Shown: piece after piece, positions 16,251 to 44,054 of the stretch | How positions within the stretch are numbered: the stretch's first letter is position 1 | Layout of the letters: each line of letters begins with the position of its first letter | Source of the DNA: Cytophagales bacterium | GTDB lineage: Bacteria > Bacteroidota > Bacteroidia > Cytophagales > Spirosomataceae | NCBI GenBank assembly: GCA_013298025.1 | Contig: JAAFJE010000003.1 | Coordinates: 124,001-188,000 of the forward strand | DNA length: 64,000 nt | Direction: 5' to 3' | Notes under the pieces: model-generated | The model's database searches: none | What the model was told of the DNA's origin: nothing | Seen by the model: the letters and a program-made list of their open reading frames with translations, nothing else | Position numbers and translations under genes: made by a program

Positions 16251-16560
16251 ATAGGCTGGGTAAATACTAAAAATTTATGTTAAAAACCTTTTCTAACGCT
16301 GTAATTTCCTATCCAAAAAAAACATTTTTTGCTGTGTCTGTTGAAAGGTTACTACAGTAGTTCAAGTGTGTTTTTATGGGTATGTTTCATTGGGGAATGA
16401 TAGTGCCAATATACAAATTACTGTTGTCATTTTCAATGATGGAGCAAAGAAGAATGTTAGAAAAACAGAAAGAAATACATGATTTAGCCAACTATTAGGC
16501 ACTCTTGGCAATTTGTCTATCATGTTTGATGAAATGCAAGAAAAGAATGAAACACAAAAA

Positions 16561-16586
16561 AGCCCTTAAACTTTCGTCTAAGGACT
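16561..16586 (-). terminator. Terminator hairpin of tRNA-Arg pseudocopy A
   Basis: The outer arms of an AGCCCTTA/TAAGGRCT stem with a T tract on the minus strand; one mismatch relative to the other two copies. Confidence 0.55.
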
Positions 16587-16588
16587 TC

Positions 16589-16670
16589 TGGTGGTCTCGT
16601 AGGGATTCGAACCCCAAACCTTCTGATCCGTAGCGGGAGTCGCACTCTCAGATGCTCTATCCAATTGAGC
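16589..16670 (-). pseudogene. Degenerate tRNA-Arg copy A
   Basis: This copy keeps the D-arm, T-arm, 3' acceptor strand and encoded CCA of the intact tRNA-Arg at 16829. It lacks the 5' acceptor strand, which is replaced by an A/T-rich spacer. Its anticodon loop holds a 14-base insertion (GAGTGCGACTCCCG) that can itself form a GAGT/ACTC hairpin. It cannot make a normal tRNA. The unit repeats with an exact 120-base period. Confidence 0.75.
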
Positions 16671-16680
16671 AAAACAAAAA

Positions 16681-16706
16681 AGCCCTTAAACTTTCGTCTA
16701 AGGGCT
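16681..16706 (-). terminator. Terminator hairpin of tRNA-Arg pseudocopy B
   Basis: Perfect 8-base arms (AGCCCTTA and TAAGGGCT) with a T tract on the minus strand, directly upstream of pseudocopy A. Confidence 0.6.
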
Positions 16707-16708
16707 TC

Positions 16709-16790
16709 TGGTGGTCTCGTAGAGATTCGAACCCCAAACCTTCTGATTTGTAGCGGGAGTCGCACTCTCAGATGCTCTATCCAATTGAGC
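16709..16790 (-). pseudogene. Degenerate tRNA-Arg copy B
   Basis: The same truncated design and the same 14-base anticodon-loop insertion as copy A, 120 bases away. It also has substitutions in the anticodon region and T-arm (CAAATC for GGATC, TCTACGAG for CCTACGAG). Sharing the insertion shows A and B were duplicated after it arose. Confidence 0.75.
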
Positions 16791-16800
16791 AAAATAAAAA

Positions 16801-16826
16801 AACCCTTAAACTTTCGTCTAAGGGCT
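16801..16826 (-). terminator. Terminator of the intact tRNA-Arg
   Basis: On the minus strand an AGCCCTTA...TAAGGGTT hairpin with a long T tract starts immediately after the encoded CCA end of the tRNA. Confidence 0.75.
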
Positions 16827-16828
16827 TC

Positions 16829-16905
16829 TGGTGGTCTCGTAGGGATTCGAACCCCAAACCTTCTGATCCGTAGTCAGATGCTCTATCCAATTGAGCTACG
16901 AAACC
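16829..16905 (-). tRNA. tRNA-Arg(ACG)
   Basis: A complete cloverleaf: acceptor strands GGTTTCG and CGAGACC, D-arm GCTC/GAGC, anticodon stem TCTGA/TCAGA with loop CTACGGA giving anticodon ACG, T-arm with GGTTCGAATCC, discriminator A and an encoded CCA. A terminator follows at once. Two broken copies lie downstream of it in 120-base steps. Confidence 0.93.
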
Positions 16906-17173
16906 GTATCCGTTGCTGTGTTTCGGGACTGCAAAATTAGTAGATTAAATTCATAAACCAAATACTTTTTAGAAAAAAATTAAAAAAAATTCTGCACACA
17001 GATACTTTTTTTACCTTTAGTATAGTTTTTTCAGTTGTTAAGTATATTGTAAGTATTATGGTAATTTGCTATTTTTCAGTATCTTATTTAAGGTATTACT
17101 GTGTAGGTTTACCAAAAGATAAGGCCGTTGTATAACCTGATAAAAAAGTTTCAATATGCTCTTTTGTTCGGTA

Positions 17174-17956
17174 TCAAAATGCTTGCTTCTTTTCAAGTTC
17201 GGGGAACGCCCTATCAATGCGTTTGGCTAGTTCTGGTAATTTAATTGTCGGAACGGCAGGAAAAAGATGATGTTCTAAATGGTAAAACATATTAAACGTT
17301 AATATATTCTTCCAGCCAGCACGCTGCGTTCTGGCAAATTCTGGGCTATCGTGCGTGTCGTGATGGACTAGCCAAACTGCAAAGAAAGCCATCATAAACT
17401 CTGCGAATACCATGACGATGATATGATAAAGCAGAAAATCAATGTTGAAATAAACAACGATAAAGGCAAAAACAGCAATCGAAAACAATTCTAACAATAC
17501 ATTCCATTGGTAGTGCTTGTTCCCAAGTTGTAAGGTTACTTTATGAATGAGCAACAGATGGATTGGCCCGTAAAGCATAGCTCCGTACCATGTCATACCT
17601 GCCGATTTTCCTTCGTAGTCTTCTGCTGTCAAACAAAATTTATGATGCCTGATGTGGTGAAACTTTACCGCATGTACAGAAACCATTAAAGAAATGCTAT
17701 TCAAATATAATGTCAACCAAGTTAAAAACCGATTTGTGCCAAGCGAATTATGAAATCCATTATGTACTTGTCGAAATGCTGCCAGGAAGTAAAATGCCGA
17801 AAAAGGCAAGGCAAGTAAATAGTATTCAAAATAAGCAAGCGTTATAGAAACCAAAAACCAAGGGATGGTCAAATTGTTTTCAATCATCATTTCTTTAAAT
17901 GAAAGCGTTTTCAAGTCTTTCCATTCAACTTTTCTTAGAATCTCTTGATGTGTCAT
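17174..17956 (-). CDS. Fatty acid desaturase family protein
   Basis: A 260-residue membrane-bound desaturase/hydroxylase-type di-iron protein. The three histidine boxes are visible: HNGFHN (about residue 87), HHIRHH (about 122) and HLEHH (about 231), separated by hydrophobic segments. It is shorter than the typical desaturase (300-370 residues), so a related hydroxylase function is possible. It is a single gene, placed between the tRNA-Arg cluster and the decayed end of the CRISPR array. Confidence 0.87.
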   Translation of the reverse strand: MTHQEILRKVEWKDLKTLSFKEMMIENNLTIPWFLVSITLAYFEYYLLALPFSAFYFLAAFRQVHNGFHNSLGTNRFLTWLTLYLNSISLMVSVHAVKFHHIRHHKFCLTAEDYEGKSAGMTWYGAMLYGPIHLLLIHKVTLQLGNKHYQWNVLLELFSIAVFAFIVVYFNIDFLLYHIIVMVFAEFMMAFFAVWLVHHDTHDSPEFARTQRAGWKNILTFNMFYHLEHHLFPAVPTIKLPELAKRIDRAFPELEKKQAF

Positions 17957-18186
17957 GTTGCCTTAGTTTTTATGAAATGGATACCAACGAACAAGGCTTG
18001 GCGATGGGGCAAATTTCTAGAAACCCTGCCAAAACCTCTAACAAATTTAACTTAAAATATTACAAATCAGTCTATTTCTAAAAGATATACAGCTACAAGC
18101 CAATATTAGACACCATTGCTCATTTGAGAAATAGCCTTATTCTATTCGATTGCACGTAAAGCCGAAGCAGAGCCTTGGCTCTACAA

Positions 18187-19098
18187 TCCTTAATCCTTGT
18201 TGGAATGGACTACATTTTCAGACCCACAGTAGCTACGAGTTTCCAACTCGGATGTATAAGCAATCTTAATTGATGTTATAATTGACCATAGTTTCTGACA
18301 TACACTCGTAAAGCCGATGCACTGCATCGGCTCTACCCGTCTTAATCCTTGTTGGAATGGACTACATTTTCGGTCCCACAGTAGCTACGATTTTCTAACT
18401 CGTATTGCAAAGCAATCTTAATCCATGTTATAATTGACCATAGTTTCTGACATACACTCGTAAAGCCGATGCACTGCATCGGCTCTACCCGTCTTAATCC
18501 TTGTTGGAATGGACTACATTTTCAGACCCACAGTAGCTACGATTTTCTAACTCGTATTGCAAAGCAATCTTAATTGATGTTATAATTGACCATAGTTTCT
18601 GACATACACTCGTAAAGCCGATGCACTGCATCGGCTCTACCCGTCTTAATCCTTGTTGGAATGGACTACATTTTCGGCCCCACAGTAGCTACGATTTTCT
18701 AACTCGGATGTATAAGCAATCTTAATTGATGTTATAATTGACCATAGTTTCTGACATACACTCGTAAAGCCGAAGCAATGCCTTGGCTCTACAAGCCTTA
18801 ATCCTTGTTCTGTTGGAATATCGTTTCAGACCCACAGTAGCTACGAGTTTCCAACTCGTATTGCAAAGCAATCTTAATCCATGTTATGATTGACCATATT
18901 TTCTGATATGCACTTGTAAAGCCGAAGCAATGCCTTGGCTCTACAAGCCTTAATCCTTGTTCTGTTGGAATATCGTTTCAGACCCACAGTAGCTACGATT
19001 TTCCAACTCGTATTGCAAAGCAATCTTAATCCATGTTATGATTGACCATATTTTCTGATATGCACTTGTAAAGCCGAAGCAGTGCCTCGGCTCTACAA
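18187..19098. repeat. Six 152-bp tandem units resembling a decayed two-spacer CRISPR block
   Basis: Units start at 18187, 18339, 18491, 18643, 18795 and 18947, exactly 152 bases apart, and the true array begins at 19099, again 152 bases on. Each unit holds two segments resembling the CRISPR repeat (one starting CTTAATCCTTGTT and ending TTTCAGAC, one starting ATCTTAATCCATGTT and ending TTTCTGA). Between them are two constant spacer-sized pieces: one with CCACAGTAGCTACGA, the other a palindromic GTAAAGCCGA...TCGGCTCTAC. 152 is twice the mean repeat-spacer length. The block lies at the trailer end of the array. Confidence 0.85.
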
Positions 19099-22000
19099 GT
19101 CTTAATCCTTGTTCTAGTGGAATATGGTTGCTGACGGCTCTAAGCTGTTATACAACGGCTTAGACTATTGTCTTAATCCTTGTTCTAGTGGAATATGGTT
19201 GCTGACATATAAACGAGTACGGCTCGGTATATTCAGGAACTGTCTTAATCCTTGTTCTAGTGGAATATGGTTGCTGACATAAAGTTCTTAAAAACTTTCC
19301 TTATAACAATGTTAAGTCTTAATCCTTGTTCTAGTGGAATATGGTTGCTGACAAGTAGTAAAAAACATCACGTCTATTGAAGGCGTGGTGGGTCTTAATC
19401 CTTGTTCTAGTGGAATATGGTTGCTGACAAAACCACTATCGGACGATGAGAAACGTTCGATTTGTCTTAATCCTTGTTCTAGTGGAATATGGTTGCTGAC
19501 AATCATTGACAAACAGTTCAATGATTACGTAGAATTACTAAAGTCTTAATCCTTGTTCTAGTGGAATATGGTTGCTGACTTTGTTTTTGAACAGTTCACC
19601 TGTTCAGAAATTGAGAAGTCTTAATCCTTGTTCTAGTGGAATATGGTTGCTGACCAAAATGCGTGTGCAAACATGGATAGCAATACGTTGAATGTCTTAA
19701 TCCTTGTTCTAGTGGAATATGGTTGCTGACAGTAAAAAACGAAAATATTGTCACAACATTTAAAGGTATGTCTTAATCCTTGTTCTAGTGGAATATGGTT
19801 GCTGACAGGCGGTTTTATTGCCTGAAACGAACTTCAAAGGCTGTCTTAATCCTTGTTCTAGTGGAATATGGTTGCTGACAAAAGATAATTTTTATTTTGA
19901 TGAAGAAATCGAAAAATGTCTTAATCCTTGTTCTAGTGGAATATGGTTGCTGACCAAATTTGTAACTGATTTTTAAACCTTTAAGAACGTGTCTTAATCC
20001 TTGTTCTAGTGGAATATGGTTGCTGACAATGAAAGGTATTTCACTTTAACAAAAAAAAGTGAACGTCTTAATCCTTGTTCTAGTGGAATATGGTTGCTGA
20101 CATTGCAAGAAAAAAGTCTTTTGAAAATTCTGAAAATCAGTCTTAATCCTTGTTCTAGTGGAATATGGTTGCTGACCTCTAAAAAAGATGAGCATTTTTG
20201 TAATTCGTAGAATTGTCTTAATCCTTGTTCTAGTGGAATATGGTTGCTGACATGACAACAAGGAGTTAACTCCGTTGCAAGCATACTTGGTCTTAATCCT
20301 TGTTCTAGTGGAATATGGTTGCTGACTTAAGAGGTTTGTTGTTTGTAAAACAAATAATAGATGATGTCTTAATCCTTGTTCTAGTGGAATATGGTTGCTG
20401 ACTGAATTTTAAAAACAGGTGACTCAAACTACCTGATATGTCTTAATCCTTGTTCTAGTGGAATATGGTTGCTGACAATGACGGACGACAACAAGGAATT
20501 GACACCATTACAAGCATAGTCTTAATCCTTGTTCTAGTGGAATATGGTTGCTGACATTTACAATGACAACGAAATTATGAACGAAATAGAGTTTGTGTCT
20601 TAATCCTTGTTCTAGTGGAATATGGTTGCTGACCTTACAAAATGCGTGCGAAAATATGGATACTACAACGTTAGTCTTAATCCTTGTTCTAGTGGAATAT
20701 GGTTGCTGACACAATGACAAATTTTAAATATAATGCTCGATTAAACCGTCTTAATCCTTGTTCTAGTGGAATATGGTTGCTGACACAAAAAAAATCGTCA
20801 TCCTTTGCATTTGCCTTGTTGCAATGTCTTAATCCTTGTTCTAGTGGAATATGGTTGCTGACCATTTGTAAACCAAGCCCCTTGTGGGAAAACAGAAAAA
20901 TGTCTTAATCCTTGTTCTAGTGGAATATGGTTGCTGACTCAAAGGCTTTACTGTAGCCGTTCACGGTGAATCGTCTTAATCCTTGTTCTAGTGGAATATG
21001 GTTGCTGACGAGTAGTAAATCAGAACCCTTAAAAAATTAAAAGAAAATAGTCTTAATCCTTGTTCTAGTGGAATATGGTTGCTGACATAAAGAATACAGT
21101 TGCAATCAAAACGATTTTGCAAAAAGTCTTAATCCTTGTTCTAGTGGAATATGGTTGCTGACACGGTCAAAAAAATAAAAGAAGGCTCAATTATGATTTG
21201 TCTTAATCCTTGTTCTAGTGGAATATGGTTGCTGACCAAAGGTGTAATGGTTTATTAAGGTTCGATTCCTTAGCAGTCTTAATCCTTGTTCTAGTGGAAT
21301 ATGGTTGCTGACACCCATATATAAACTGGTATGACGTAATTGGCTTTAAAGTCTTAATCCTTGTTCTAGTGGAATATGGTTGCTGACTTTCTGTTATGTA
21401 TTCGGTATCGTTTGTTTCGGAGGTTGTCTTAATCCTTGTTCTAGTGGAATATGGTTGCTGACGATACACTTAAAACCGAAAACAATAAACTTTTTGATGG
21501 TCTTAATCCTTGTTCTAGTGGAATATGGTTGCTGACGGGTTGAAATCCAAAAGCAAGCTGAAACCGAAGAAGCTGCTGTCTTAATCCTTGTTCTAGTGGA
21601 ATATGGTTGCTGACGGTAAAAAGGTCACATTTGACATAAGCCTTTACAATCCAGGTCTTAATCCTTGTTCTAGTGGAATATGGTTGCTGACCCTTTATCG
21701 CCAGTGCGTTAGGCAACTTTCAATTGTCTTAATCCTTGTTCTAGTGGAATATGGTTGCTGACATATTTAGAAGTGTTATTTGAAGGAATCTTCAAAAAAA
21801 CAGTCTTAATCCTTGTTCTAGTGGAATATGGTTGCTGACACAAGTTGGCCGCAATAGCTCAAATGTTCTCTATAAGAGAAGTCTTAATCCTTGTTCTAGT
21901 GGAATATGGTTGCTGACTACAAAGCGTAGAAGCTTACAGCCAAATTGCATCTCTGGTCTTAATCCTTGTTCTAGTGGAATATGGTTGCTGACCTAATCGA

Positions 22001-23559
22001 AAAACTAAAGAAAGGACTTTAATAAGTCTTAATCCTTGTTCTAGTGGAATATGGTTGCTGACAAAAACTGCATATCAGTTGATTACAACAAACTGAAATC
22101 CGTTGTCTTAATCCTTGTTCTAGTGGAATATGGTTGCTGACAAGTTATTCACGGAATCGAGAAGGCACAGGCACGAAGTGTCTTAATCCTTGTTCTAGTG
22201 GAATATGGTTGCTGACAAGGGTGGCAGCGGAGTACTTTACGAAATTTGGGGCTGAGGTCTTAATCCTTGTTCTAGTGGAATATGGTTGCTGACTTTATTA
22301 TGCCGAGCTAATAGAAACTTAATTAAGGTCAGTCTTAATCCTTGTTCTAGTGGAATATGGTTGCTGACACCACTTATTTTTAGAGTACCAATGAAACAAC
22401 CAGAAGGTCTTAATCCTTGTTCTAGTGGAATATGGTTGCTGACTGATTATGCTCGCCCAAGCAACGAGCAAATCACAGTCTTAATCCTTGTTCTAGTGGA
22501 ATATGGTTGCTGACCTGAGTACACCGACGACGAAGTAGATGTGCTTTTGGGCGTCTTAATCCTTGTTCTAGTGGAATATGGTTGCTGACAAATTAATTCA
22601 ATACCTAGAAAATTCAAATTTTTATAGGTCTTAATCCTTGTTCTAGTGGAATATGGTTGCTGACTCTTTTTTGTACTCAGACGAAGGGATTATACATATT
22701 AAGTCTTAATCCTTGTTCTAGTGGAATATGGTTGCTGACACGGTTTAAAAGCTGTAGATTTTATTCGTCCTAAGGTCTTAATCCTTGTTCTAGTGGAATA
22801 TGGTTGCTGACAAGATTTCATTACTTTCTGTGAAACAAATTTACAGGAGTGTCTTAATCCTTGTTCTAGTGGAATATGGTTGCTGACTGCGTGTGAAAAT
22901 CTTGATTCAAACTCTTTAAATAGCTGTCTTAATCCTTGTTCTAGTGGAATATGGTTGCTGACCCAAAGTTTGTTTTTGTCCAAACTGCTCAAAACCGTCT
23001 GTCTTAATCCTTGTTCTAGTGGAATATGGTTGCTGACTTTTTTTTAACGGCTACTTAACTATTAATTGATTTGTCTTAATCCTTGTTCTAGTGGAATATG
23101 GTTGCTGACTGCTTCATTTGCTTTTAAAAAATCGGTTAGAGAGTTTTTGTCTTAATCCTTGTTCTAGTGGAATATGGTTGCTGACATCTGATGACTAATC
23201 AGATTGAGGTTTTCATTGAAAAGTCTTAATCCTTGTTCTAGTGGAATATGGTTGCTGACTATTCATCATGCGGATGAAATAAGTTCTATTGCTTTCTTGT
23301 CTTAATCCTTGTTCTAGTGGAATATGGTTGCTGACAAAAACAAATTTCATTAACAGCAGAAAAATGGCTGTGTCTTAATCCTTGTTCTAGTGGAATATGG
23401 TTGCTGACAAAAATTAGGCGTGAATTTTAACGCCTCTATCATGGGTCTTAATCCTTGTTCTAGTGGAATATGGTTGCTGACCCAATTGGCACAACGGACA
23501 AACCTTTTATTGCTAGTTCACTGTCTTAATCCTTGTTCTAGTGGAATATGGTTGCTGAC
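19099..23559 (-). CRISPR. CRISPR array, 60 repeats of 37 bp, 59 spacers
   Basis: I count 60 repeats, with start-to-start distances of 70-79 bases and spacers of 33-42 bases. The repeats look identical by eye. On the minus strand each repeat starts GTCAGCAACCATATTCC and ends AAGGATTAAGAC; the ATTAAGAC end is a typical crRNA 5' tag. This and the adjoining cas genes place the leader at the right (after 23559), so the newest spacers should be near 23523 and the oldest near 19099. Repeat and spacer lengths fit type III. Several spacers are related to each other (see findings). Confidence 0.98.
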
Positions 23560-23771
23560 TCGATAGGTTTTTAAGTTGTTGATAGTCAAAATATTAAGCG
23601 TTAAAATATTTGAAATTTTATATTTTTCCACGGTAATCTTCTATCAAAAAATGTACCTTTTTTTTACTTCGAGTAAATGTTTTAGTAAAAATATATACTG
23701 CTGTGCATACTTGCAAGTATGAAACCTATTAATTTCTAATTAAAATTTGGCATACTTTATCGGTTGCCTTC
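23560..23771 (-). promoter_or_regulatory. CRISPR leader
   Basis: An AT-rich, gene-free stretch between the last repeat and the stop of the TPR/cold-shock gene. It contains a perfect 16-base palindrome, CATACTTGCAAGTATG, at 23706-23721 and, near the array, a TAATATTTTGAC element resembling a -7 box on the minus strand. Leader identity is inferred from repeat orientation and position. Confidence 0.65.
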
Positions 23772-25259
23772 TTATACAACCTGTGCAATATGCAGGGCTT
23801 TTTTGCCAAGTTTCTTTTTTACAGGGTCTAATACATACGCATAGTTGCCTTGTAGCCTACTGCCTGTGGCTACGCCCAAGCTTGTTAGCATGACTTTCGG
23901 AATGTATATGTCTTGTACAAAACCAAACCCTCCCTTGGTCAATTGTACCGTGCCTTCAAAAGGATGTATCCAGTTGGGTTGTTGGGTGGGGGTTTTTACC
24001 TGTACCCAGTGTACTTTGCTTTTGTCGTGTGGTGCTACAAACAGGGTGATACATTGCCCTTGCTGTGGCTTGGGCAATAGGCGATAGTACGGAAAACCGC
24101 CTTCTGTGCCTTCCGAACTGATGTATTTCAACCATTTTTGCTCGGTTTTTAATTCCGTTATGAGGGCTTCTACTTGTAGGAGGTCGGCATACAATAGGCT
24201 TTCGGCTTGGGCTGCCCATCCATGATAGCGTTGTGGGTTGTGGTGGCTCGCTACGCTTTCAAACCACGAAGCGTTGAGGATGTTCTGCAAGGCTTGGGGT
24301 AGTTGCCAGCCTTTTTGTTGGCGGATGTTTCTACAGTGTTCGGCTTCGCTTTTGGCTTCTGCCCAATAGTGCATTTTTTCGAGTTGTTGGGCTAGTTGAA
24401 GTTTGACACCTACCAAAAATTCGTCTGGACTTTTACACAAAACCGCACGACAGAGGCAAGCCAACTTGTCGTTGTCGGTTTCAACGCATTGGCTGAGTAA
24501 TTCCCAAACCCAAAATTCGTTACTCTTGCTACGGGCAAAAGGCAAAAAAGAGGTATAGGCTTCGCTACGTCCTGCCGAAGTAAGCAAGAGCAATTTTACA
24601 CGATAATACTTAACATACACAAAAGAAGGGTTTTGTGTTTCTAGCTGCTGAAACAATGCCAACCACGCTTGTTGTTGGGCCATATCAAGCGTATCAAACA
24701 GGGGTAAAAGCTTTTTGGCAGTAGCTATCATTGCTCTTTCTACAAGAGGCGTGTATGGAGTACCGTTAGGCGATATTTCTTTTTCAAAGTCTTTGATAGC
24801 ACTGTTGCTAAGGTTGTAGTCTTGGATAAAATCAAGAAAATGTACCCAGTGATTTGCTATTTTAAGGGAAAAACTCAAAAGTGCCGACCGTAGTTCGTGG
24901 CTTGGGGCTTGCAGTAGGCGGAAGTTTTGCCAAAAACATTGAAACAAATCAATGGCCAAGGGTAAAAAAGCTTCGCCCATGCGTTGAAGGCGATACAATT
25001 GTTTAATCAATTGCCATCCGATTTGTTCGAGTAAAATTCCTTCTGTTTGCACTTGTGGATATGCCATGAGTTCGTGCAAAATTGCCTGAAAACGCAATTG
25101 TTGTTCGCCTGCCATTTTCAATTGGTCGAACTTTACCCATGCCCATGCCCGAAACGCCCAAATATCGTTGGGTTGCTGGTCGAGTATTTCTTGTGCTAAA
25201 AACAAGGCTTCGTCGAGTTTGCCTTGTTGACGTAAGCTTTTGATTTGGTTGTGAGTCAT
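23772..25259 (-). CDS. TPR-like protein with C-terminal cold-shock/OB-like domain in the cas operon
   Basis: From the ATG at 25259 this is 495 residues (MTHNQIKSLRQQGKLDEALF); a TTG at 25295 overlapping the cas2 stop would add 12. The N-terminal three quarters are helical and TPR-like. The last 75 residues hold FEGTVQLTKGGFGFVQDIYI and end DPVKKKLGKKALHIAQVV, a cold-shock-like beta-barrel with the aromatic GFGFV nucleic-acid-binding strand. It resembles the DUF7017 family. It directly follows cas2 and is the last gene before the leader, so an RNA- or DNA-binding role in adaptation or crRNA handling is plausible but unproven. Confidence 0.75.
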   Translation of the reverse strand: MTHNQIKSLRQQGKLDEALFLAQEILDQQPNDIWAFRAWAWVKFDQLKMAGEQQLRFQAILHELMAYPQVQTEGILLEQIGWQLIKQLYRLQRMGEAFLPLAIDLFQCFWQNFRLLQAPSHELRSALLSFSLKIANHWVHFLDFIQDYNLSNSAIKDFEKEISPNGTPYTPLVERAMIATAKKLLPLFDTLDMAQQQAWLALFQQLETQNPSFVYVKYYRVKLLLLTSAGRSEAYTSFLPFARSKSNEFWVWELLSQCVETDNDKLACLCRAVLCKSPDEFLVGVKLQLAQQLEKMHYWAEAKSEAEHCRNIRQQKGWQLPQALQNILNASWFESVASHHNPQRYHGWAAQAESLLYADLLQVEALITELKTEQKWLKYISSEGTEGGFPYYRLLPKPQQGQCITLFVAPHDKSKVHWVQVKTPTQQPNWIHPFEGTVQLTKGGFGFVQDIYIPKVMLTSLGVATGSRLQGNYAYVLDPVKKKLGKKALHIAQVV

Positions 25260-25291
25260 GGCGTAAGAGAGTTTAGGTTTAATTCGTTTGC

Positions 25292-25780
25292 TCAAAAAAT
25301 AACCGTGTGCTTAGGGGCTGTCATGAGGTCGAGTTCAAAGTTTTTGCCAATACAAGTCAATTTATTGAGCATATCTTCGCCTACTGGCAGCACCATAATG
25401 CTATCTTCGTTTTCGTAGCAATCGTTGGTTTGTTTGAGTATGGCAATCACCTCTTTGTGCATTTTATGGGTAAGTCGGGCAAAAAAAACCGACTTTTGTA
25501 CCCGAATACAGCCTTGTTTTTCGAGGTATTTTGCCACTAATCGCCTGATTTTATCGTTTTCAATATCATATAAAATAAAACAGTACATTTCGTCAGTTTT
25601 TTTGTGTTGATTTTGTTGAAACCATTGCAAAAACACGCCTAGGTGTTTGGGCAAATCGTCACGGGTAAGCACTTGCTCGATGCTTTCTTGGGGCAAGCTT
25701 GGCAAGGCGTGCGTCGCCCAAAGTTGGTTGAGTTCTTTGGGCGATAAAAGTGGGCTAGGCGATTTTTTCTTTCTGGGCAT
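25292..25780 (-). CDS. cas2: CRISPR-associated Cas2 with N-terminal extension
   Basis: A 162-residue protein whose C-terminal ~95 residues are Cas2: YCFILYDIENDKIRRLVAKY with the metal-binding Asp, then GCIRVQKSVFFARL and the dimer strand EDSIMVLPVGEDM. The first ~65 residues (PRKKKSPSPLLSPKELNQLW onward) are an extension not found in ordinary Cas2 (80-110 residues). It bridges two Cas1 dimers in the integrase complex. It lies 11 bases after the primase-like gene and before the TPR gene, in one operon. Confidence 0.93.
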   Translation of the reverse strand: MPRKKKSPSPLLSPKELNQLWATHALPSLPQESIEQVLTRDDLPKHLGVFLQWFQQNQHKKTDEMYCFILYDIENDKIRRLVAKYLEKQGCIRVQKSVFFARLTHKMHKEVIAILKQTNDCYENEDSIMVLPVGEDMLNKLTCIGKNFELDLMTAPKHTVIF

Positions 25781-25790
25781 TGTGGTGTAT

Positions 25791-26780
25791 TTAGTTTTGC
25801 ATCAATACTGGATTCAGCGTAATGCCTTCGGTGGTACATTCGGGTACAAACAAAAGCTTGCTCAAAGCTGTGTGCAAAGCATTGGCCAAATGAAGGTCTG
25901 TGCCTGTTTTGGGCGAATGTACCAGACTAAAGCCTTTTTTTCCATGAAAAACATTTACTTCTGCGGTGCGGTAGCCTTGTCGAATCATCACTTTGATGCC
26001 GTAATTGAGTGCTTGTACTTGCACCAGTTCCCAATTGTGCATTTGGCAAAGTATATGTACATCGCCCTCCATTTGTTGCAAAATGGTGGGTACAAATACC
26101 TGTTTAGCTGCCTTTTTTACGGGAGCATGAGGGTTGATGGCTTGGCGTACAGCGTCGTATTTCTGCTGATTAATTTCCTTTTTTTCTTTTACCAAGGGCT
26201 TGGCGGTGGTGGCTACAGGTGTTGCTGGAGTTTGGGCATCGTCGAATAAAGCTTGTGTAAAGCTTTTCCAATCAACAGGCAAGGCAAGCGGATTGACATA
26301 TACATGAGGGTCGTGTGCCAAGAAGCAAGCCCTTGTAGCATCGCAGGTGCGTAAATCTATGCTGCCAGCCAAGTGTATGCTCTCGGCAAATTGTGTGGCA
26401 AAAGCCCGATAAAATGCTTTGTAGGTAGCCAAATCCTGACAAGGCTCTTGCAACAAGCACAATACCTTAAAGCCTTCGCCACTAGGCGACACAAATGCCA
26501 AGGCAACTCGCTCGTCTTGCAACACAATGTTGGGTACTTTTCCTTCTTCAAGTATGCAATGGTCGATGTCGAGCAATACAGCATGACAAGCCGTAAAGGC
26601 TTCCGAACGGCGTTGATTCCCTACAAAACTAGCTGCTACAAGATAGGGCAGGCGTGTTTTGAGCTTGCGATAGGCATTGGCATCCATGTCTTTGATTTTG
26701 CGTAAACGCAAGGTTTCGGCTTGTAGCGACGCATGGCTACGAATATGCGTAGCAAGGTCTGCCAAAGAGATAGCCTGCAT
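25791..26780 (-). CDS. CRISPR-associated primase-polymerase-like (VirE_N/BT4734-type AEP) protein
   Basis: A 329-residue protein with an archaeo-eukaryotic-primase-like domain of the BT4734/VirE N-terminal type. Visible motifs: AVLLDIDH (DxD metal site, about residue 68-75), FVSPSGEGFKVLCLL (about 96-110) and DATRACFLAHDPHVYVNP (about 147-164). The C-terminal half (DVHILCQMHNWELVQVQALN onward) is a separate small domain. Located between cas1 and cas2, it matches the known association of CAPP primase-polymerases with type III adaptation modules. Primase or polymerase activity is inferred from family and context. Confidence 0.8.
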   Translation of the reverse strand: MQAISLADLATHIRSHASLQAETLRLRKIKDMDANAYRKLKTRLPYLVAASFVGNQRRSEAFTACHAVLLDIDHCILEEGKVPNIVLQDERVALAFVSPSGEGFKVLCLLQEPCQDLATYKAFYRAFATQFAESIHLAGSIDLRTCDATRACFLAHDPHVYVNPLALPVDWKSFTQALFDDAQTPATPVATTAKPLVKEKKEINQQKYDAVRQAINPHAPVKKAAKQVFVPTILQQMEGDVHILCQMHNWELVQVQALNYGIKVMIRQGYRTAEVNVFHGKKGFSLVHSPKTGTDLHLANALHTALSKLLFVPECTTEGITLNPVLMQN

Positions 26781-26851
26781 CGCCTCTGTAGGGTTGGCGG
26801 TAATGTTTTGTCCGAAAAAAAAGGTTGGTGTTGTGAAGGTTGTAAAGGGGG

Positions 26852-27793
26852 TTAAGCGTTAAACTTTTTCATTTCACTGGCTAGTTTCTGTGCTTCCAAT
26901 TGGATGTGTACCAGTCGGGTTCTTTGTAACCCTTCTAATACTACTTTTTCATGCAAATAATCGTTAAACGACTGAATCAAAATGCGTTTGCCAATCGTGC
27001 CAAGCCAATAACTTCCTAATGTTACTTCAAAAAACTCTTCGCAAACAACTTCTTGTAGGCATAAATGACAAACTACGTAGTCGGCCCAATGCCTAAAGGG
27101 TTCTATAAAATCATACACCAATACTGGGCGGTTGTACTCGTCACGGTGCATAACGCCAATGTAGGGGTCGAGTCCGGCATGAATCAATGCCGATTCGCAA
27201 TGACCATACAACATACCATAAGCATAATTGAGCAAACAATTGAATGCGTCGGTAGCAGGATGTTTAGAACGTTTAGTAAAACGATAATTGTCGGGCAACA
27301 ACTGGCTGAGTTGTTCAAAATATACACGTCCCATACTGCCTTCAAAACCTCGCATACTGGCAAAAGCTTCGGGGAGGCTACTTTTTCCTTGCTGTTGGGC
27401 TATCTTGCGTTGGTATTGCTGAATGGCCTCTACGCTTGTAGCTACGTCTGTTGTTTGCAGCATTCCCAACAATTCGAGTACAGCTATTTGCCCAGATGCC
27501 TTTTTACTGAGTATGCTGATAATCCAGTCGAGGGCTGTAGGATGTTGAGAAAAAGCTAATTGATTTTTCCGAATACTTGAAATAGAACCAAACTGGTTGC
27601 TCCATACACGCCCCATCGGGAAGCCCTTTTGGTCGATAAAAAGTAAATCTATGTTGTGTTGAATAGCCGTGGCAATTACTTCATACGTAAGCTTGGTTGC
27701 TGGGTGTAGCTGAATAGATTTTACCTGAAAAACAGGGATATACATTACTTGGTCGGTATGTTTTACACAAAACCGACCTCCTTCGATGCTCAA
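26852..27793 (-). CDS. cas1: CRISPR-associated endonuclease/integrase Cas1
   Basis: The 313 residues from the TTG at 27793 are Cas1. Catalytic residues are present: Glu in MRGFEGSMGRVYFEQL, His in SALIHAGLDPYIGVMH and Asp/Glu in VLVYDFIEPFRHW. The frame stays open upstream and encodes QLIVNRKGASLSIEGGRF, which looks like the family's first beta-strand, so the true start is probably upstream at a non-ATG codon (an ATA at 27817 or ATC at 27838) and the coordinates given are a minimum. It has no reverse transcriptase fusion. With Cas2 it integrates spacers at the leader end of the adjoining array. Confidence 0.92.
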   Translation of the reverse strand: MSIEGGRFCVKHTDQVMYIPVFQVKSIQLHPATKLTYEVIATAIQHNIDLLFIDQKGFPMGRVWSNQFGSISSIRKNQLAFSQHPTALDWIISILSKKASGQIAVLELLGMLQTTDVATSVEAIQQYQRKIAQQQGKSSLPEAFASMRGFEGSMGRVYFEQLSQLLPDNYRFTKRSKHPATDAFNCLLNYAYGMLYGHCESALIHAGLDPYIGVMHRDEYNRPVLVYDFIEPFRHWADYVVCHLCLQEVVCEEFFEVTLGSYWLGTIGKRILIQSFNDYLHEKVVLEGLQRTRLVHIQLEAQKLASEMKKFNA

Positions 27794-32905: not shown

Positions 32906-32981
32906 GTTTTAATTTTTGGTGGAATATGTTTGCTGGCACTCGTAAAGCCGATGCAGTGCCTCGGCTCTACAAGTCTTAATC
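32906..32981. repeat. Isolated CRISPR-repeat relic with palindromic spacer-like segment
   Basis: A degenerate repeat (GTTTTAATTTTTGGTGG then AATATGTTTGCTGGC) is followed by ACTCGTAAAGCCGATGCAG...TCGGCTCTACAA and then GTCTTAATC, the first bases of a repeat. The middle piece is the same palindrome seen six times at 18187-19098. This is about 9 kb from the array. Except for this and the palindrome at 32778, nothing is seen in the 340 bases before the terminator. Confidence 0.7.
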
Positions 32982-33579: not shown

Positions 33580-34887
33580 TCAATTAATAAAATGTATTTC
33601 TTTTACTTTTTTAAGATTTCGCTTTAAGCATAATAAAAAATCAGTTCCTGTTTTAGGATTACTACGAGCAAACCCAGCATGTTGTATATCATTTCTATGC
33701 TTTGAACCTAAATCTCCATAAATTTCCTGAATATCAGTCATATATGGCAGTTCATTCAGTTTACTAATAACACTCATTTGTTCGTTTTTTTCAGTATCAT
33801 TTTCACTATATATAAATGGTTCTCTGGGGTCTTTTCCTAAAAGGGCAGAAGTAATATTCCTATTACTTTTATTTTGATAATCCAAATGTGATTGATGAAG
33901 ACAAATTGTAATAATAAACTCTTGTAGGAGCGTAATACCTTGCTGAATTAAACCACTATTCAAACACCATTCGACAGCTAAAATACCATTAAAAACATCG
34001 TCTAGTTGATAATCTTTAACTCTATCTTGAATTTTATTAAGTAATTCGTTTAAAGGATTTAACTTTGGAATCTGTGTTGAAAATTCAGCAATAGTATCAA
34101 TACTTTTTTTGAGTATATGTGGAATTTCAGCATCTATAATTGCTTGCCCACGATTAGTGGTAAACATTTCCATTAATGCTTGTAGATTTTCTGCAAAATT
34201 TGTCAATTCTGTTTTAATTTTCTTGTTAGTATTTTTTGAATTAGCAGCATGACTAAAATCTGAATATTTGAGTGTTTTAATTAACTTTTGAGCATTACCA
34301 AAATCTATAAAATCAGAAGTTGCGGTTGTCCATTCTTGTAATTGTGCAAATGCTGTTAAATTTAATAAAGGTGCTTTTCTATCAGAAGGATTGGGGTATT
34401 TTTCATCTATTTTATAAGCCTCTCCCAAAGCTTCAAATGCTCCATACAATACATTGCTTACTGTAATTTTTTTTAATACTTTAGCGTATTGCAATAAAAC
34501 CATTGATAGCATGGGCAACGACCTAAATCCATGAGTTATATCCAAAGTTATGTCATCTCGTTCTTCTAAAACATTGTACACACTTAGAAACACATTCCAA
34601 ATTTCATCTTCTGAATACCCTTCTGCAATTGGCGAAATAGGGATAATTTCAAAAACATAGTGATACTTGGTTAAAGACTGTACCAAGGTATCCCAATGTT
34701 TATTCTTAGCTCCTTGGGTGAGGAATATATAAACTTTGTCTTTACTCGTCCAGTTTTTAGTAATGAGTTGAAGTATAGCATCTTGTACATAAATCACAAC
34801 AGAACTTTCCCCTAATTCATCAGACTTGTAAACACATGGTTTATAATTATTAGTCCCCAAAAACGAAATAAAAACTTTACGTCCCAT
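33580..34887 (-). CDS. csx1: CARF-HEPN ribonuclease of the Csx1/DxTHG family
   Basis: A 435-residue type III effector. The N-terminal CARF domain starts KVFISFLGTNNY and contains ITLDITHGFRSLPMLS, the DxTHG signature (about residue 114-120). The C-terminal HEPN domain carries RNDIQH (R-x4-H catalytic motif, about residue 400). Such proteins bind cyclic oligoadenylate made by Cas10 and then degrade RNA non-specifically. It is one base from the AAA_14 gene stop-start junction and five bases before the Csx15/20-like gene. Confidence 0.92.
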   Translation of the reverse strand: MGRKVFISFLGTNNYKPCVYKSDELGESSVVIYVQDAILQLITKNWTSKDKVYIFLTQGAKNKHWDTLVQSLTKYHYVFEIIPISPIAEGYSEDEIWNVFLSVYNVLEERDDITLDITHGFRSLPMLSMVLLQYAKVLKKITVSNVLYGAFEALGEAYKIDEKYPNPSDRKAPLLNLTAFAQLQEWTTATSDFIDFGNAQKLIKTLKYSDFSHAANSKNTNKKIKTELTNFAENLQALMEMFTTNRGQAIIDAEIPHILKKSIDTIAEFSTQIPKLNPLNELLNKIQDRVKDYQLDDVFNGILAVEWCLNSGLIQQGITLLQEFIITICLHQSHLDYQNKSNRNITSALLGKDPREPFIYSENDTEKNEQMSVISKLNELPYMTDIQEIYGDLGSKHRNDIQHAGFARSNPKTGTDFLLCLKRNLKKVKEIHFIN

Positions 34888-34888
34888 T

Positions 34889-36046
34889 TTAAAAGTTGAG
34901 TTTAGTTAACTGATTAAAACCATACACCGTTGCATCGCTACGTTTTTGAAATTGGTCTCCACCATATACAATATGCGTATTGGTTGAGGGATTGATTTTC
35001 TTGAGGTAGTTCAAACCTTTGAAAAAGTCTGGCTGAATTGTTTTCCCTGATTTTATTTCGATGGCTTCGAGCTGTACACCATTTTGTACCAATAAGTCTA
35101 TTTCGTGTTGTGCGGTATCTCGCCAAAAGTAAAATTGCGGTCTTTTTCCTTGATTAAGCATTTTTTTCATCAACTCTGTAATGACCAAATTTTCAAATAA
35201 ATTACCTTTAGCAAAATGTACATTTAATTCTTCTGTTGTACGAATACCCAATAAATGAGCCGCTAAACCTGTATCATAAAAATACACTTTTGGGGTACTT
35301 ACCAAGCGTTTACTGAAATTCTCGAAATAAGGATTGAGCCGATACGCCACAAAGGACGTTTCCAAAACCGACATCCAAGCGTTAATCGTTTTGTTATCTA
35401 AACCCAATTCTACCCCAAGATTATTTTGGTTAAATAACTGTCCAATGCGTCCGGCTAATAATCGAATAAATCGCTGAAATAAATCAAGGTTCATGATATT
35501 TTTTACTTGTCGTACATCTCGCTCGATATAAGTCTGTAAATAACTATCATAAAAATCTTCTGAACTAATGCCATTGACCAATTTACGGGGATAAAAACCT
35601 TGTATCAATTGGCTTTCCCAATCGTCAGACAAGTAAGCTGTACCTTGTAATTCTTCTACTGCAAAGGGCAATAAATTAAAAATTGCCACACGACCAGCCA
35701 GCGATTGCGTGATTTTTTCCATCAATAAAAAGTTCTGTGAACCCGTCAAAATATATTCGCCTAAGCGTTGCCGAGCATCTGTATAAACCTGCAAATACGA
35801 AAACAACTCAGGTACATATTGTACTTCGTCAAGAATAACCCCGTTTTGATAGGTTTCCAAAAAACCTACAGGGTCTTGTTGAGCAAAAAGTCTATCAGAA
35901 GGATTTTCGAGTGATACATACTGATAATCAGGACGTAAAAGCTTCGTCAAGGTAGTTTTGCCAGACTGCCGAGGGCCCGTAATACTTACGATAGGATATT
36001 TTCCTAATAGTTCATTTACTTTATGTGCAATGGTACGAGCTATCAT
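34889..36046 (-). CDS. AAA_14/DUF4143 ATPase inserted in the cmr operon
   Basis: A 385-residue ATP-binding protein. Walker A is IVSITGPRQSGKTTLTKLL (about residues 18-36), Walker B VILDEVQYVPELFSYLQ, and TGSQNFLLMEKITQSLAGR is the sensor region. The DUF4143 part ends with a nuclease-like fold (RDTAQHEIDLLVQNG...LEAIEIKSGKT), a PD-(D/E)XK-like pattern. It has its own perfect inverted repeat overlapping its start and is a common stand-alone gene in Bacteroidota. It may be a passenger or an insertion between cmr6 and csx1; a CRISPR function is not shown. Confidence 0.85.
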   Translation of the reverse strand: MIARTIAHKVNELLGKYPIVSITGPRQSGKTTLTKLLRPDYQYVSLENPSDRLFAQQDPVGFLETYQNGVILDEVQYVPELFSYLQVYTDARQRLGEYILTGSQNFLLMEKITQSLAGRVAIFNLLPFAVEELQGTAYLSDDWESQLIQGFYPRKLVNGISSEDFYDSYLQTYIERDVRQVKNIMNLDLFQRFIRLLAGRIGQLFNQNNLGVELGLDNKTINAWMSVLETSFVAYRLNPYFENFSKRLVSTPKVYFYDTGLAAHLLGIRTTEELNVHFAKGNLFENLVITELMKKMLNQGKRPQFYFWRDTAQHEIDLLVQNGVQLEAIEIKSGKTIQPDFFKGLNYLKKINPSTNTHIVYGGDQFQKRSDATVYGFNQLTKLNF

Positions 36047-36049
36047 TTT

Positions 36050-36086
36050 CTTGTATATTTAGGAATTGGATTCCTAAATATACAAG
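36050..36086. promoter_or_regulatory. 17-base-arm inverted repeat at the AAA_14 gene start
   Basis: The arm CTTGTATATTTAGGAAT and its exact complement flank a three-base TGG centre. It ends 4 bases before the ATG at 36046, where it would block translation as an RNA hairpin or transcription as an operator. Confidence 0.75.
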
Positions 36087-36111
36087 AAAAATCAAAAAGA
36101 GATATAGGTTT

Positions 36112-37179
36112 TTAATGAAAATAACCATAGCCCACGGCAGTTTTTGCACCAATGCCGTGGTTGGTGAGGGCATCTTTAAGCCAATCTTTAATTGTTTTAT
36201 CTTTTAGCTTATCACTTTTTGTATTCAGTTCCGATGACCCTATAAAGAATTTAAAAGGACTTTTAGTAACAGTTAAAAAAGAAACAGGTACAGGAGATTG
36301 CGTATCTGTAGGAGGTTCTGTCCCTTGATAATATTTGGGATAATGAACATTCATAATATCAGGCTCTATTCTTGGCTTTTCATTGGGAAAAGCATCAAAG
36401 AATACCAATTTACCTGCACTTGATTGACCACCAAACCATTTTACGAAAGTATCATCTTTAAGAGCCGAATTTTCCTCATTTTGATACATATTAAGAATAA
36501 TCCAACTACGAACAACGCCCTTTATTGAACTGGCAGGAATGTATGGAACACCGTAAATATGGTGTAAAGTCATAGAGGTTTCATACACAGAATGCCCTCC
36601 CAATCCTACTACTAAATGATAGCTTGGGGTTAATGTTACATCAATAACATTTTCACCAAATAACGCTTTCGCATTATTACAATGACGTTTGTTAAGGGCT
36701 GCAAACTTATTTTCTAATAAACCAAAGTTTTCTTTGATTTCAAATCCTCCATTTTTTGCATTGCGTAAAAAGGAAAACTTATCACTTTCAAAACGAGCAA
36801 ACTTGTTAAGTTTCAAATGAAAGTTATCAATATCGTTGATTAAAGATTTTTTTGTATCACAAGGTATCTGGCTAAACTCAAGTCTAAAGCTGTCACCACT
36901 TCTTTCTTGCTCAAGTAACATTTTCTCATATTCTTTTTTAAAATCTTCTTCTAACGCTGCCTCTTGTTTTCGTTGCTCAATTTGTAGTTTTTTCTCGCTG
37001 TCTACAGAGAAAGTTATTCCGTTAATAATTATTTTATCAACAGGAATTCCTTCAAACTCACATTCTAAACCGCTAAACTCTTTACCAATATCTGGTAAAT
37101 CTTTGTTTATAGATAACTGTTTGTTTTCAAAAAGAACGTGCCTTGGTTTAGGTTTTATTCTAAATATGCCCTTTTTCAT
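36112..37179 (-). CDS. cmr6: Type III-B RAMP protein Cmr6
   Basis: A 355-residue RAMP (ferredoxin-fold) subunit of the Cmr complex. The C-terminal two thirds contain VVGLGGHSVYETSMTLHHIY, then GVPYIPASSIKGVVRSW (glycine-rich RAMP region) and SPVPVSFLTVTKSPFKFFIG, ending with HGIGAKTAVGYGYF. A charged N-terminal region of about 150 residues is longer than usual. Cmr6 caps the crRNA 3' end with Cmr1. Its start codon overlaps the cmr5 stop by one base. Confidence 0.92.
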   Translation of the reverse strand: MKKGIFRIKPKPRHVLFENKQLSINKDLPDIGKEFSGLECEFEGIPVDKIIINGITFSVDSEKKLQIEQRKQEAALEEDFKKEYEKMLLEQERSGDSFRLEFSQIPCDTKKSLINDIDNFHLKLNKFARFESDKFSFLRNAKNGGFEIKENFGLLENKFAALNKRHCNNAKALFGENVIDVTLTPSYHLVVGLGGHSVYETSMTLHHIYGVPYIPASSIKGVVRSWIILNMYQNEENSALKDDTFVKWFGGQSSAGKLVFFDAFPNEKPRIEPDIMNVHYPKYYQGTEPPTDTQSPVPVSFLTVTKSPFKFFIGSSELNTKSDKLKDKTIKDWLKDALTNHGIGAKTAVGYGYFH

Positions 37180-37784
37180 TATTCTTGGATTAAATCATCT
37201 CCCTCAATTAAACCTTCTGCAAATCGGCGAAGCCAATTAAATAATGCCAGTACTTCGTTAGTTACTGCACGATATTGACCGCTTTCTAATTGGATGATAA
37301 TTTCTGATAGTTCTCCATTCTTATTGTTAATTAAATAGTGATTATCTGAAGTTTTTAACCAATTATCAACTTGATTATAAATCAATGCCCAAGCATTTCC
37401 ATCTTTTTTCTTCGACATGATAAATGCTAATGTTGCTCCTAAACCACTTGTTTTTACCATCATGGGAGTTTTTTTGACATAAGCTTTATACTCTTTACCG
37501 TACTTCTCGTAATGTTCAGCAAGTCTTTTCTTAAAGCCCTCAAACTTTTTGTCTTTATCTTTAGAAGGATTAATCAAAAAATCTTCTAAAATTTTGTTGT
37601 TAAGACTATTATCTTTCAAATCTTTTTCAAACTTCTTCTTAAAAGAAACAGTGAAAAAAGAAGCATTATTTGTTGTTTTATTATCGTTGTCATATTTGAA
37701 ATCTTTTAGTAGTAAAGTTTGATTTGCACATTTGTAAGCAAAATCTGCTCTTCCTTGTTCGATTCCATTGATTGTCTTAGCCAT
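37179..37784 (-). CDS. cmr5: Type III-B small subunit Cmr5
   Basis: A 201-residue helical protein. The start GIEQGRADFAYKCANQ and the central PMMVKTSGLGATLAFIMSKK match Cmr5; the C-terminal NEVLALFNWLRRFAEGLI closes the domain. It is longer than common Cmr5 (120-160 residues), with an added charged stretch at about 40-90. Cmr5 forms the inner filament that contacts target RNA. Its start overlaps cmr4 by eight bases. Confidence 0.9.
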   Translation of the reverse strand: MAKTINGIEQGRADFAYKCANQTLLLKDFKYDNDNKTTNNASFFTVSFKKKFEKDLKDNSLNNKILEDFLINPSKDKDKKFEGFKKRLAEHYEKYGKEYKAYVKKTPMMVKTSGLGATLAFIMSKKKDGNAWALIYNQVDNWLKTSDNHYLINNKNGELSEIIIQLESGQYRAVTNEVLALFNWLRRFAEGLIEGDDLIQE

Positions 37785-38829
37785 TTGATACCTCCTTTGC
37801 TGTTAGTAATGATTTTACAACTCGTACAATTCCTTTCCCTAATGTAGCATCGCCTCCAATTTGAATTACATCAGGCAGTGCTGTAGCAAAATAATTCATA
37901 ACATCTACGTCTGTTCGAAGAATCGCCTCTTGCTTATCCTTATCTTTTAAAAATACAGGGCTTGCCATGACTAAACTGTACATGATACTTTCGGCAGGAA
38001 GAAACTCTTCGGTAAATAATGCACCTGCTTGTACTGTACCTGTTTTGTTATCAATTTTTGTTCGTGTGATAACTTCGGTACTTAGGTTGACAAAATCTTT
38101 AAAATCGTCATTCGATAAAATAACAATATCCGTCGTGAGTTTATCCTTCCAAAAGCCATCGGTAAATTTGTATGAAAGCCATTGCCCAAGTATTTCTTCT
38201 TTTTCTTCGCCTACTTTAACTTTAATATCATAAGAACCGCTCACAGTAAAGGCATATTCTTCTAAGACAATTTTATCGTTACCAATTTTCAAACTTGTAC
38301 TTGCTGTTACACACTTATCAGATTCAGGTTCTTTTCCTGTAATTACAACTTCTATGCCCGTCAAACTCATATCACGCTTAAACTGCTCTAATACTTTTGG
38401 GCAAGTAACCCAAGCAAAAACGCCCTTTACACTTTTGACAGGAAAAAGTAATAATCGAGCATCTGAAAAGCCTAACGCACCAGCATGTGCGTCACCATCT
38501 TCTGGACCAAAAGCAAGTTCAACAGCCTGATTGTAATTTATAAGCTGCACGTCTTTTTTTAGCTTCCAATTCTCAGTTATTTTAGGGAAAATGTTAGAAA
38601 GTTCTGTTTTAACATTTTCATTATTAAACTTAAAAGATTTATCGACTAAAGAAATTCTGTTTTCAACAGCCTCTCTTACAGCACCTTTAAAAGAAGAACC
38701 TTCAATTTTAGGGAAAGAAGTATGTCTTTCTCGTTGAATAGGTAAATCAACTATACCCAAATCTGAGCCACTGCCAGCGTGCAAGGGTGTTTCGCAAATG
38801 AAAAATAGGGGTTTGGATTGTTTGAACAT
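37777..38829 (-). CDS. cmr4: Type III-B backbone RAMP protein Cmr4
   Basis: From the ATG at 38829 this is 350 residues (MFKQSKPLFFICETPLHAGS); an upstream start at 38874 gives 15 extra hydrophobic residues that are not typical. RAMP features: TPLHAGSGSDLGIVDLPIQR, FPKIEGSSFKGAVREAVEN, GALGFSDARLLLFPVKS and a terminal IQIGGDATLGKGIVRV. Cmr4 is the repeated backbone that cuts target RNA every six bases with an Asp in the thumb loop. It follows the CARF-nuclease gene, overlapping the frame of its neighbour only in the rejected extension. Confidence 0.93.
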   Translation of the reverse strand: MFKQSKPLFFICETPLHAGSGSDLGIVDLPIQRERHTSFPKIEGSSFKGAVREAVENRISLVDKSFKFNNENVKTELSNIFPKITENWKLKKDVQLINYNQAVELAFGPEDGDAHAGALGFSDARLLLFPVKSVKGVFAWVTCPKVLEQFKRDMSLTGIEVVITGKEPESDKCVTASTSLKIGNDKIVLEEYAFTVSGSYDIKVKVGEEKEEILGQWLSYKFTDGFWKDKLTTDIVILSNDDFKDFVNLSTEVITRTKIDNKTGTVQAGALFTEEFLPAESIMYSLVMASPVFLKDKDKQEAILRTDVDVMNYFATALPDVIQIGGDATLGKGIVRVVKSLLTAKEVSNG

Positions 38830-38842
38830 AATTGCTTTAATT

Positions 38843-41304: not shown

Positions 41305-41308
41305 GGCT

Positions 41309-43102: not shown

Positions 43103-43109
43103 TATAAAA

Positions 43110-44039: not shown

Positions 44040-44054
44040 GTATAATGTTTTTAT

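Follow-up and report, generated by a model that had tools for sequence, protein, structure and literature searches.

How the end of a CRISPR array farthest from its leader comes to be built of long, closely similar tandem units, and whether such units do anything for the cell, is the question raised by a locus in the genome of a Cytophagales bacterium (GenBank GCA_013298025.1, contig JAAFJE010000003.1). The window, that is, the whole stretch of 64,000 nucleotides that was analyzed, contains a type III-B CRISPR-Cas locus made up of an array with cmr and cas genes, and next to the array, at 18187-19098, six units of 152 bp. Array tails are easily dismissed as decay. Here, with a probability of roughly 0.58, the tail is read as two old, host-derived spacers with decayed repeats that were amplified in tandem and recombined with one another, leaving a near-neutral and inert end to the array.

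The array proper (19099-23559, minus strand) consists of 60 identical 37-bp repeats and 59 spacers of 33-42 nt (mean 38.0), and its identical repeats, its unique and regular spacers, and the adjoining Cmr, cas1, and cas2 genes identify it as type III-B. An A+T-rich stretch between array and cas genes (23560-23771, minus strand) is the probable leader, judging from the orientation of the array. The adaptation genes, all on the minus strand at 23772-27793, encode a 507-residue protein with DUF7017 and TOTE conflict-system S1/CSD domains (23772-25295) that adjoins cas2 (25292-25780), a CRISPR-associated primase-polymerase type B (25791-26780), and cas1 (26852-27793). According to PMC8211822, such CAPP_B primase-polymerases are nearly confined to Bacteroidetes, and most of them belong to type III operons. 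The interference genes (33580-44729, minus strand) form a cmr module that includes a Cas6 with Cas6b domains; in addition to this Cas6, the stretch encodes a TIGR02221 family (Csx2) protein, an AAA_14/DUF4143 protein, cmr6, cmr5, cmr4, a TIGR02619-like protein (below its cut-off), cmr3 (called with PF09700 above and TIGR01888 below the respective cut-off), cas10/cmr2, and cmr1. The nearest Cas1 in the collection of named loci comes from Flectobacillus (73%), followed by those of Emticicia, Dyadobacter, Runella, and Arcicella (58-61%). A similar type III-B locus, with a primase-polymerase type B and about 90 repeats, is carried by plasmid pSP2_2 of Runella sp. SP2, where it adjoins a second cas4-cas2-cas1-cas6 set.

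Orientation of the array follows from its repeat, which in the minus-strand sense ends in ...AACAAGGATTAAGAC; the repeats adjoining cas1 in relatives mostly end in GGATTAAGAC or close forms. As we take this end of the repeat to be the handle side of the crRNA, the crRNA sense would be the minus strand and 19099 the leader-distal end of the array, so that the block lies on the trailer side, where the preliminary description had placed it. None of the 59 true spacers matches the window outside the array at up to five substitutions; part of one of them (21244-21274) shows a 31-bp match at 96.8% (E 3e-3) to the uncultured phage cr53_1. Elsewhere in the window, a 120-bp unit repeated 2.7 times (16554-16873) overlaps a tRNA-Arg gene (ARAGORN, 16829-16905, minus strand).

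The geometry of the block is regular. Its units start at 18187, 18339, 18491, 18643, 18795, and 18947, and the first perfect repeat of the array starts at 19099, so that the spacing is 152 bases throughout, and each unit is organized as 37+39+37+39, that is, as two repeat-like and two spacer-like segments, both as first described. In unit 1 (18187-18338), repeat slot A (18187-18223) is followed by spacer 1 (18224-18262), repeat slot B (18263-18299), and spacer 2 (18300-18338), and the same order is kept in units 2 (18339-18490), 3 (18491-18642), 4 (18643-18794), 5 (18795-18946), and 6 (18947-19098). Given the range and mean of the true spacers, a 39-nt slot is of ordinary length. In the crRNA sense, spacer 2 of unit 6 (19060-19098) comes directly after the last perfect repeat. 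At the opposite edge, the block is cut at a palindrome: a seventh, outermost copy of the spacer-2 palindrome with 2 nt more occupies 18155-18186 (plus strand), and the repeat slot expected beyond it, at 18111-18147, is unrecognizable, matching the array repeat at only 9 of 37 positions. Tandem Repeats Finder (TRF) accordingly reports 18155-19113 with a period of 152, 6.3 copies, 92% match, and 0% indels.

Descent of the block from the array, proposed at the outset, is borne out by the match of both repeat slots, in register, to the array repeat. When each unit is compared with this repeat in all 152 phases, good matches (25-31 of 37) occur at phases 0 and 76 alone, the third-best phase reaching 15-17 of 37 (with unit 6 continued by unit 1). 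In the rest of the window, plus-strand matches to the repeat average 9.75 with a standard deviation of 2.66 and a maximum of 23 of 37, and the minus strand has no match at 22 of 37 or more. With repeats worn to this degree and only two spacers, reiterated six times, 18187-19098 is as far as shown not a working part of the array.

The preliminary description had called the six units exact, which holds for their spacing only: their pairwise identity is 82-98% (125-149 of 152), with 32 variable sites and no indel across the six. As the units differ from one another, an assembly artifact is unlikely. Likewise, similarity to the array repeat had been said to rise toward the array, and from unit 1 to unit 6 it does so in slot A (26, 27, 28, 27, 31, and 31 of 37) and not in slot B (26, 28, 26, 26, 25, and 25 of 37). 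Unit 4 is a mosaic, combining a repeat A of the far type with a spacer 2 of the near type, and more generally, of the 406 pairs that informative sites form, 109 violate the four-gamete test, indicating that the units have exchanged sequence. Thus, tandem amplification of a two-spacer block agrees with the data, while divergence alone, the other half of the original proposal, has to be supplemented by recombination among units. The absence of indels might reflect a constraint on length, which counts against reading the block as inert. Repeats A and B were also considered as ancestral versions of the repeat and rejected as such, the states that they have in common with the repeats of 16 relatives being at random level (p 0.26-0.35), a negative result that also weighs against the main reading.

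It had been suggested that units found elsewhere in the genome apart from any array would make them a general dispersed repeat. Genome-wide, the full unit lies at its six places alone, and this confinement rules out such a repeat; what is dispersed in the genome are the two palindromes, accompanied by one partial relic of the unit. The full unit is likewise found in none of 98 other genomes, two of which have a match of 32-34 bp (E ~7e-4). The relic, detached from the block at 32906-32981, lies between a WYL gene and the Csx2-family gene beside the cmr genes, and consists of a 32-nt worn repeat with a 5-bp deletion (32906-32937), a 35-nt palindrome spacer whose left flank is CACTC as in units 1-4 (32938-32972), and the first 9 nt of the repeat (32973-32981). 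When the palindrome is masked, the stretch preceding it outscores all of its 300 shuffles. The stretch that follows the relic was tried as a relic of spacer 1, and as 17 of 300 shuffles equal its score no claim is made for it.

Where the two spacers came from is the next issue. Only one of them had been thought palindromic; both in fact hold palindromes, and both palindromes occur elsewhere in the genome. Spacer 1 includes GTAGCTACGAGTTTCCAACTCG, either as such or altered by one or two changes. In unit 5 it reads GTAG-C-TACGAGTT-TCC-AACTCGTA, a perfect palindrome in which GTAG is followed after 1 nt by an 8-bp stem closing a 3-nt loop. PMC6006769 defines a GTAG REP as GTAG or GTGG located 0-2 nt 5' of a fully paired stem of 7-20 nt with a loop of 2-5 nt; spacer 1 of unit 5 falls within this definition, and in each of the remaining five units the stem carries one or two mismatches. 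Two further marks of GTAG REPs, recurrence in the genome and proximity of one copy to a RAYT gene, are present as well, in about two independent contexts. The core, GTAGCA[C/T]GAGTTTCCAACTCG, has five exact copies elsewhere, and only exact copies were counted, since a search that tolerated up to three mismatches gave 8 matches on one strand and 7 on the other, and 7 and 1 with a reversed control. One copy starts 3 nt past the stop of an ORF of 213 codons that is RAYT-like (NF047646 REP_Tyr_transpos at 75.2 bits, just below the cut-off of 80; PF01797 at 25.5 bits, cut-off 23). The remaining four lie at or across the stops of ORFs with similar tails (488, 494, and 492 residues and an 84-residue piece) and may have spread by gene duplication, so that together with the RAYT copy they represent some two independent contexts rather than five; the case for a dispersed REP is accordingly less strong in spacer 1 than in spacer 2. 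None of the five genomic copies has the extra T of spacer 1, and their flanks differ from its own. At up to one mismatch, the core hairpin has 11 forward matches in one genome of the family and none in 44 of the 59 genomes searched. The genome of the window also has five Y1_Tnp genes, four of them with repeated palindromes of their own nearby.

Spacer 2 carries a perfect palindrome found, outside the block and the relic, at nine other loci (contigs C17, C23, C4, C11, and C45, and twice each on C50 and C51). It too contains GTAG, which pairs with CTAC, so that the tag is not single-stranded, and the palindrome is absent near all five Y1_Tnp loci (about 1.5 kb of flanks, up to three mismatches); with its tag paired and proximity to a RAYT gene not found, it falls outside the GTAG REP class. 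The copies on C23 and C11 lie at contig ends amid tRNA-like repeats. At both, the left flank agrees at 6 of 8 positions with some of the units, a level reached by 13 of 2000 random 8-mers of the window, and the C23 copy is identical to spacer 2 of unit 6 at 33 of 39 nt. These two copies may be relatives of the source of spacer 2, or the dispersed element may be longer than the palindrome. A phage origin of the two spacers was rejected: the block has no phage match, and the exact palindrome patterns have none in viral contigs. A search against plasmids gave one 28-bp match (E 0.9), in a Runella plasmid with a related array that lacks a tandem tail.

These observations can be joined in a sequence of events such as the following. 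The leader-distal end of the array would once have held two ordinary 39-nt spacers with palindromes from the host genome: the GTAG-tagged REP in spacer 1 and the dispersed perfect palindrome in spacer 2. The surrounding repeats would have decayed, before the amplification or with it. Unequal homologous recombination between direct repeats could then have produced six repeat-spacer-repeat-spacer units, with further exchange among them, and in a block now idle in immunity such expansion would be near neutral. The entry of the palindromes as captured spacers, the relative timing of decay and amplification, and the lack of a present immune role are the steps that we infer. Capture has a difficulty of its own in that two adjacent self-derived spacers, both palindromic, would be odd for chance.

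The main rival to the reading as an inert, amplified tail is insertion, in which REP- or MITE-like palindromes were transposed into the tail by a RAYT or another mover and the flanking CRISPR repeats then drove the amplification. Although rather unlikely overall, this has a parallel at the trailer of an 89-repeat array in Algoriphagus, where a palindromic, dispersed-looking element of about 160 bp splits a repeat, with ATCCACTAAAAC on both sides. Two copies of this arrangement lie 247 bp apart (identified by eye, not by TRF). As this element interrupts a repeat instead of a spacer slot, insertion is a live route in the window too. In Pleomorphovibrio, moreover, the tail units fuse a piece of the repeat to a similar element, parts of which recur elsewhere in that genome, and the Y1_Tnp genes of the window's genome, with repeated palindromes near four of the five, are consistent with transposition. 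Both palindromes of the window, however, sit inside spacer segments of normal length with in-register repeats on either side, whereas insertion into a 38-nt spacer would be expected to add some 25-30 nt. The left flank CACT of the spacer-2 palindrome, moreover, is kept in the units and the relic, so that those copies descend from one event.

Whether the block has been turned to some use was approached in several ways. The preliminary description had raised the option that the block was reused as a decoy, a structured RNA, or a tracr-like element; anti-repeats, terminators, Rfam families, and covariation give no support for it. The minus strand of 18180-23600 has 60 37-mers with at least 22 matches, which is the number of true repeats and leaves none for the block. 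No intrinsic terminator occurs in 17900-19140, where shuffled sequences average 0.9, and a tracr-like or terminator role was rejected on these two grounds. Rfam gives four matches in 17000-24500, all below the gathering score, two of them being CRISPR-DR64 on slot A of units 5 and 6 (27.4 bits versus 40). Covariation in the palindrome, as proof of a selected RNA hairpin, was rejected because 240 of 500 shuffles reach the same paired percentage. Promoter-like sites were likewise set aside, with six found in the block and 3.8 expected (standard deviation 2.2). A function of the block is possible; none of these tests shows one.

Two functional alternatives were considered. In the first, the block would be a selected, hairpin-rich cap that ends or stabilizes the pre-crRNA or shields the array against convergent transcription, its copies being kept for dosage. 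The predicted folds of two minus-strand units are indeed more stable than those of shuffled sequences (z -3.85 and -2.88), mainly through the spacer-2 hairpin, and in 20 of 29 arrays of Bacteroidota the trailer has a stabler best 50-nt fold than the leader (Wilcoxon p 0.0027, with G+C content uncontrolled). Hairpins of at least 11 pairs are also commoner in trailers (6 of 29) than in far segments (2 of 55; p 0.018, or 5 of 28 and p 0.040 with the window excluded). Stem length, on the other hand, does not differ overall between trailers and leaders (Mann-Whitney p 0.37; 6 of 29 versus 1 of 29, p 0.10), the palindrome hairpin forms in predicted folds for spacer 2 only and not for spacer 1, and at the threshold applied such a tail is missing from 25 of the 30 arrays. 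Together with the terminator and covariation results, this makes a selected cap quite improbable.

In the second alternative, the units would give rise to crRNA-like RNAs acting on host transcripts that bear the palindromes (REP/RAYT), with decay of the repeats damping autoimmunity. The ATTAAGAC handle is kept in slot A of units 2-4, the near copy of spacer 2 follows a perfect repeat, and spacer 1 corresponds, but for one extra base and one change, to the REP beside the RAYT-like gene. In slot B and in the near copies of slot A, however, the handle is changed, a spacer-2 guide would be predicted to fold on itself, and the extra T and differing flanks set spacer 1 apart from the genomic REPs. 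Such self-regulation seems very improbable.

Comparison with other arrays indicates that tandem tails are not peculiar to the window. Arrays near Cas1 homologs were gathered from 38 named loci and from 29 regions, the latter given by the 29 matches outside the window's own genome in an order-level search in which 28 of 292 genomes matched, the own genome included. After removal of cases with short or missing trailers or unclear orientation, and with duplicates counted once, 29 arrays were kept, to which the Runella plasmid array was added to make 30; as several come from one genome, not all are independent. A tail was scored if TRF gave a period of at least 120 with at least 85% match in the first 1.5 kb past the last good repeat, a threshold set post hoc. 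By this measure, tandem tails are found in 5 of 30 trailers, the window included; none of the 30 leader sides has one, and of 435 background tiles, some of which come from mutually overlapping loci, only one does; the 120-bp tandem at 16554 lies in an untiled stretch. Fisher's test gives p 4.6e-6 against the background (6e-5 with the window excluded) and 0.052 against the leaders. At a period of at least 60, for which the periodicity of the arrays themselves enters, the counts are 7 of 29 trailers and 2 of 29 leaders (p 0.14).

The five tails belong to the window, Dyadobacter, Pleomorphovibrio, Phaeodactylibacter, and a Chitinophagales MAG, and in all of them the unit has 14-28 exact bases in common with the repeat of its own array. 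The Algoriphagus case described above would be a sixth. Among the matches listed for the whole genomes of Phaeodactylibacter (40 of 51 candidates scored) and Pleomorphovibrio, units with a repeat piece occur on stretches of the CRISPR contig only; elsewhere in both genomes, the matches listed contain only parts that lack a full repeat piece. The Pleomorphovibrio and Algoriphagus tails have a similar palindromic element in common, but as the palindromes differ between tails, several separate origins are likely. In a Lewinella MAG (locus L070, 9492-9780 and from 13634 on), the two arrays that flank the cas genes have a common trailer sequence with a palindrome of 32-33 bp, and in Phaeodactylibacter the two flanking arrays likewise have trailer sequence in common. 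A still broader proposal, that a palindromic tandem tail built of the array's own repeat and host palindromes is a recurrent ending of type III arrays in Bacteroidota, either because hairpin DNA or REP single-stranded DNA is a preferred substrate of Cas1-Cas2-PrimPol or because the terminus is selected, is a doubtful generalization at present.

If host palindromes were indeed taken up as spacers, or repeatedly lodged at the trailer and were amplified along with pieces of the repeat, CRISPR and REP, both of them families of short palindromes, would be linked, and the tail would offer a concrete site at which to test self-capture by adaptation genes that include a primase-polymerase. On a more practical level, palindromic tandem tails may mislead programs that find the ends of arrays.

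Degenerate leader-distal repeats and duplicated spacers are common in ordinary CRISPR arrays. The window resembles such array ends in its position at the old end, its worn repeats, and its duplicated repeat-spacer blocks. It departs from them in having a two-spacer block present six times with host palindromes in both spacers, and in repeats that are worn to 25-31 of 37 yet remain perfectly in register. Among the other Bacteroidota tails, trailer tandem units likewise combine a piece of the array's own repeat with palindromes or other element sequence; their units, by contrast, are 161-318 bp long, their repeat pieces are broken or split, and their palindromes are different.

In the open literature, by titles and the openings of abstracts, a palindrome-bearing tandem CRISPR tail was not found. 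Mobile elements are largely absent from the CRISPR loci of archaea according to PMC4390879, which notes one IS and one 132-bp MITE in euryarchaeal loci, and CRISPRs have been speculated to derive possibly from REPIN-like elements (PMC3116915). With the GTAG REP/RAYT (TnpA-REP) systems, the window shares a tagged stem (in unit 5), genomic copies, and one copy beside a RAYT-like gene. PMC3733652 describes both GTAG REPs and clusters of them that are reiterated in tandem together with flanking DNA, just as the units of the window are. Unlike in those clusters, the flanking DNA in the window is CRISPR repeat, and the palindromes stand at the positions of spacers.
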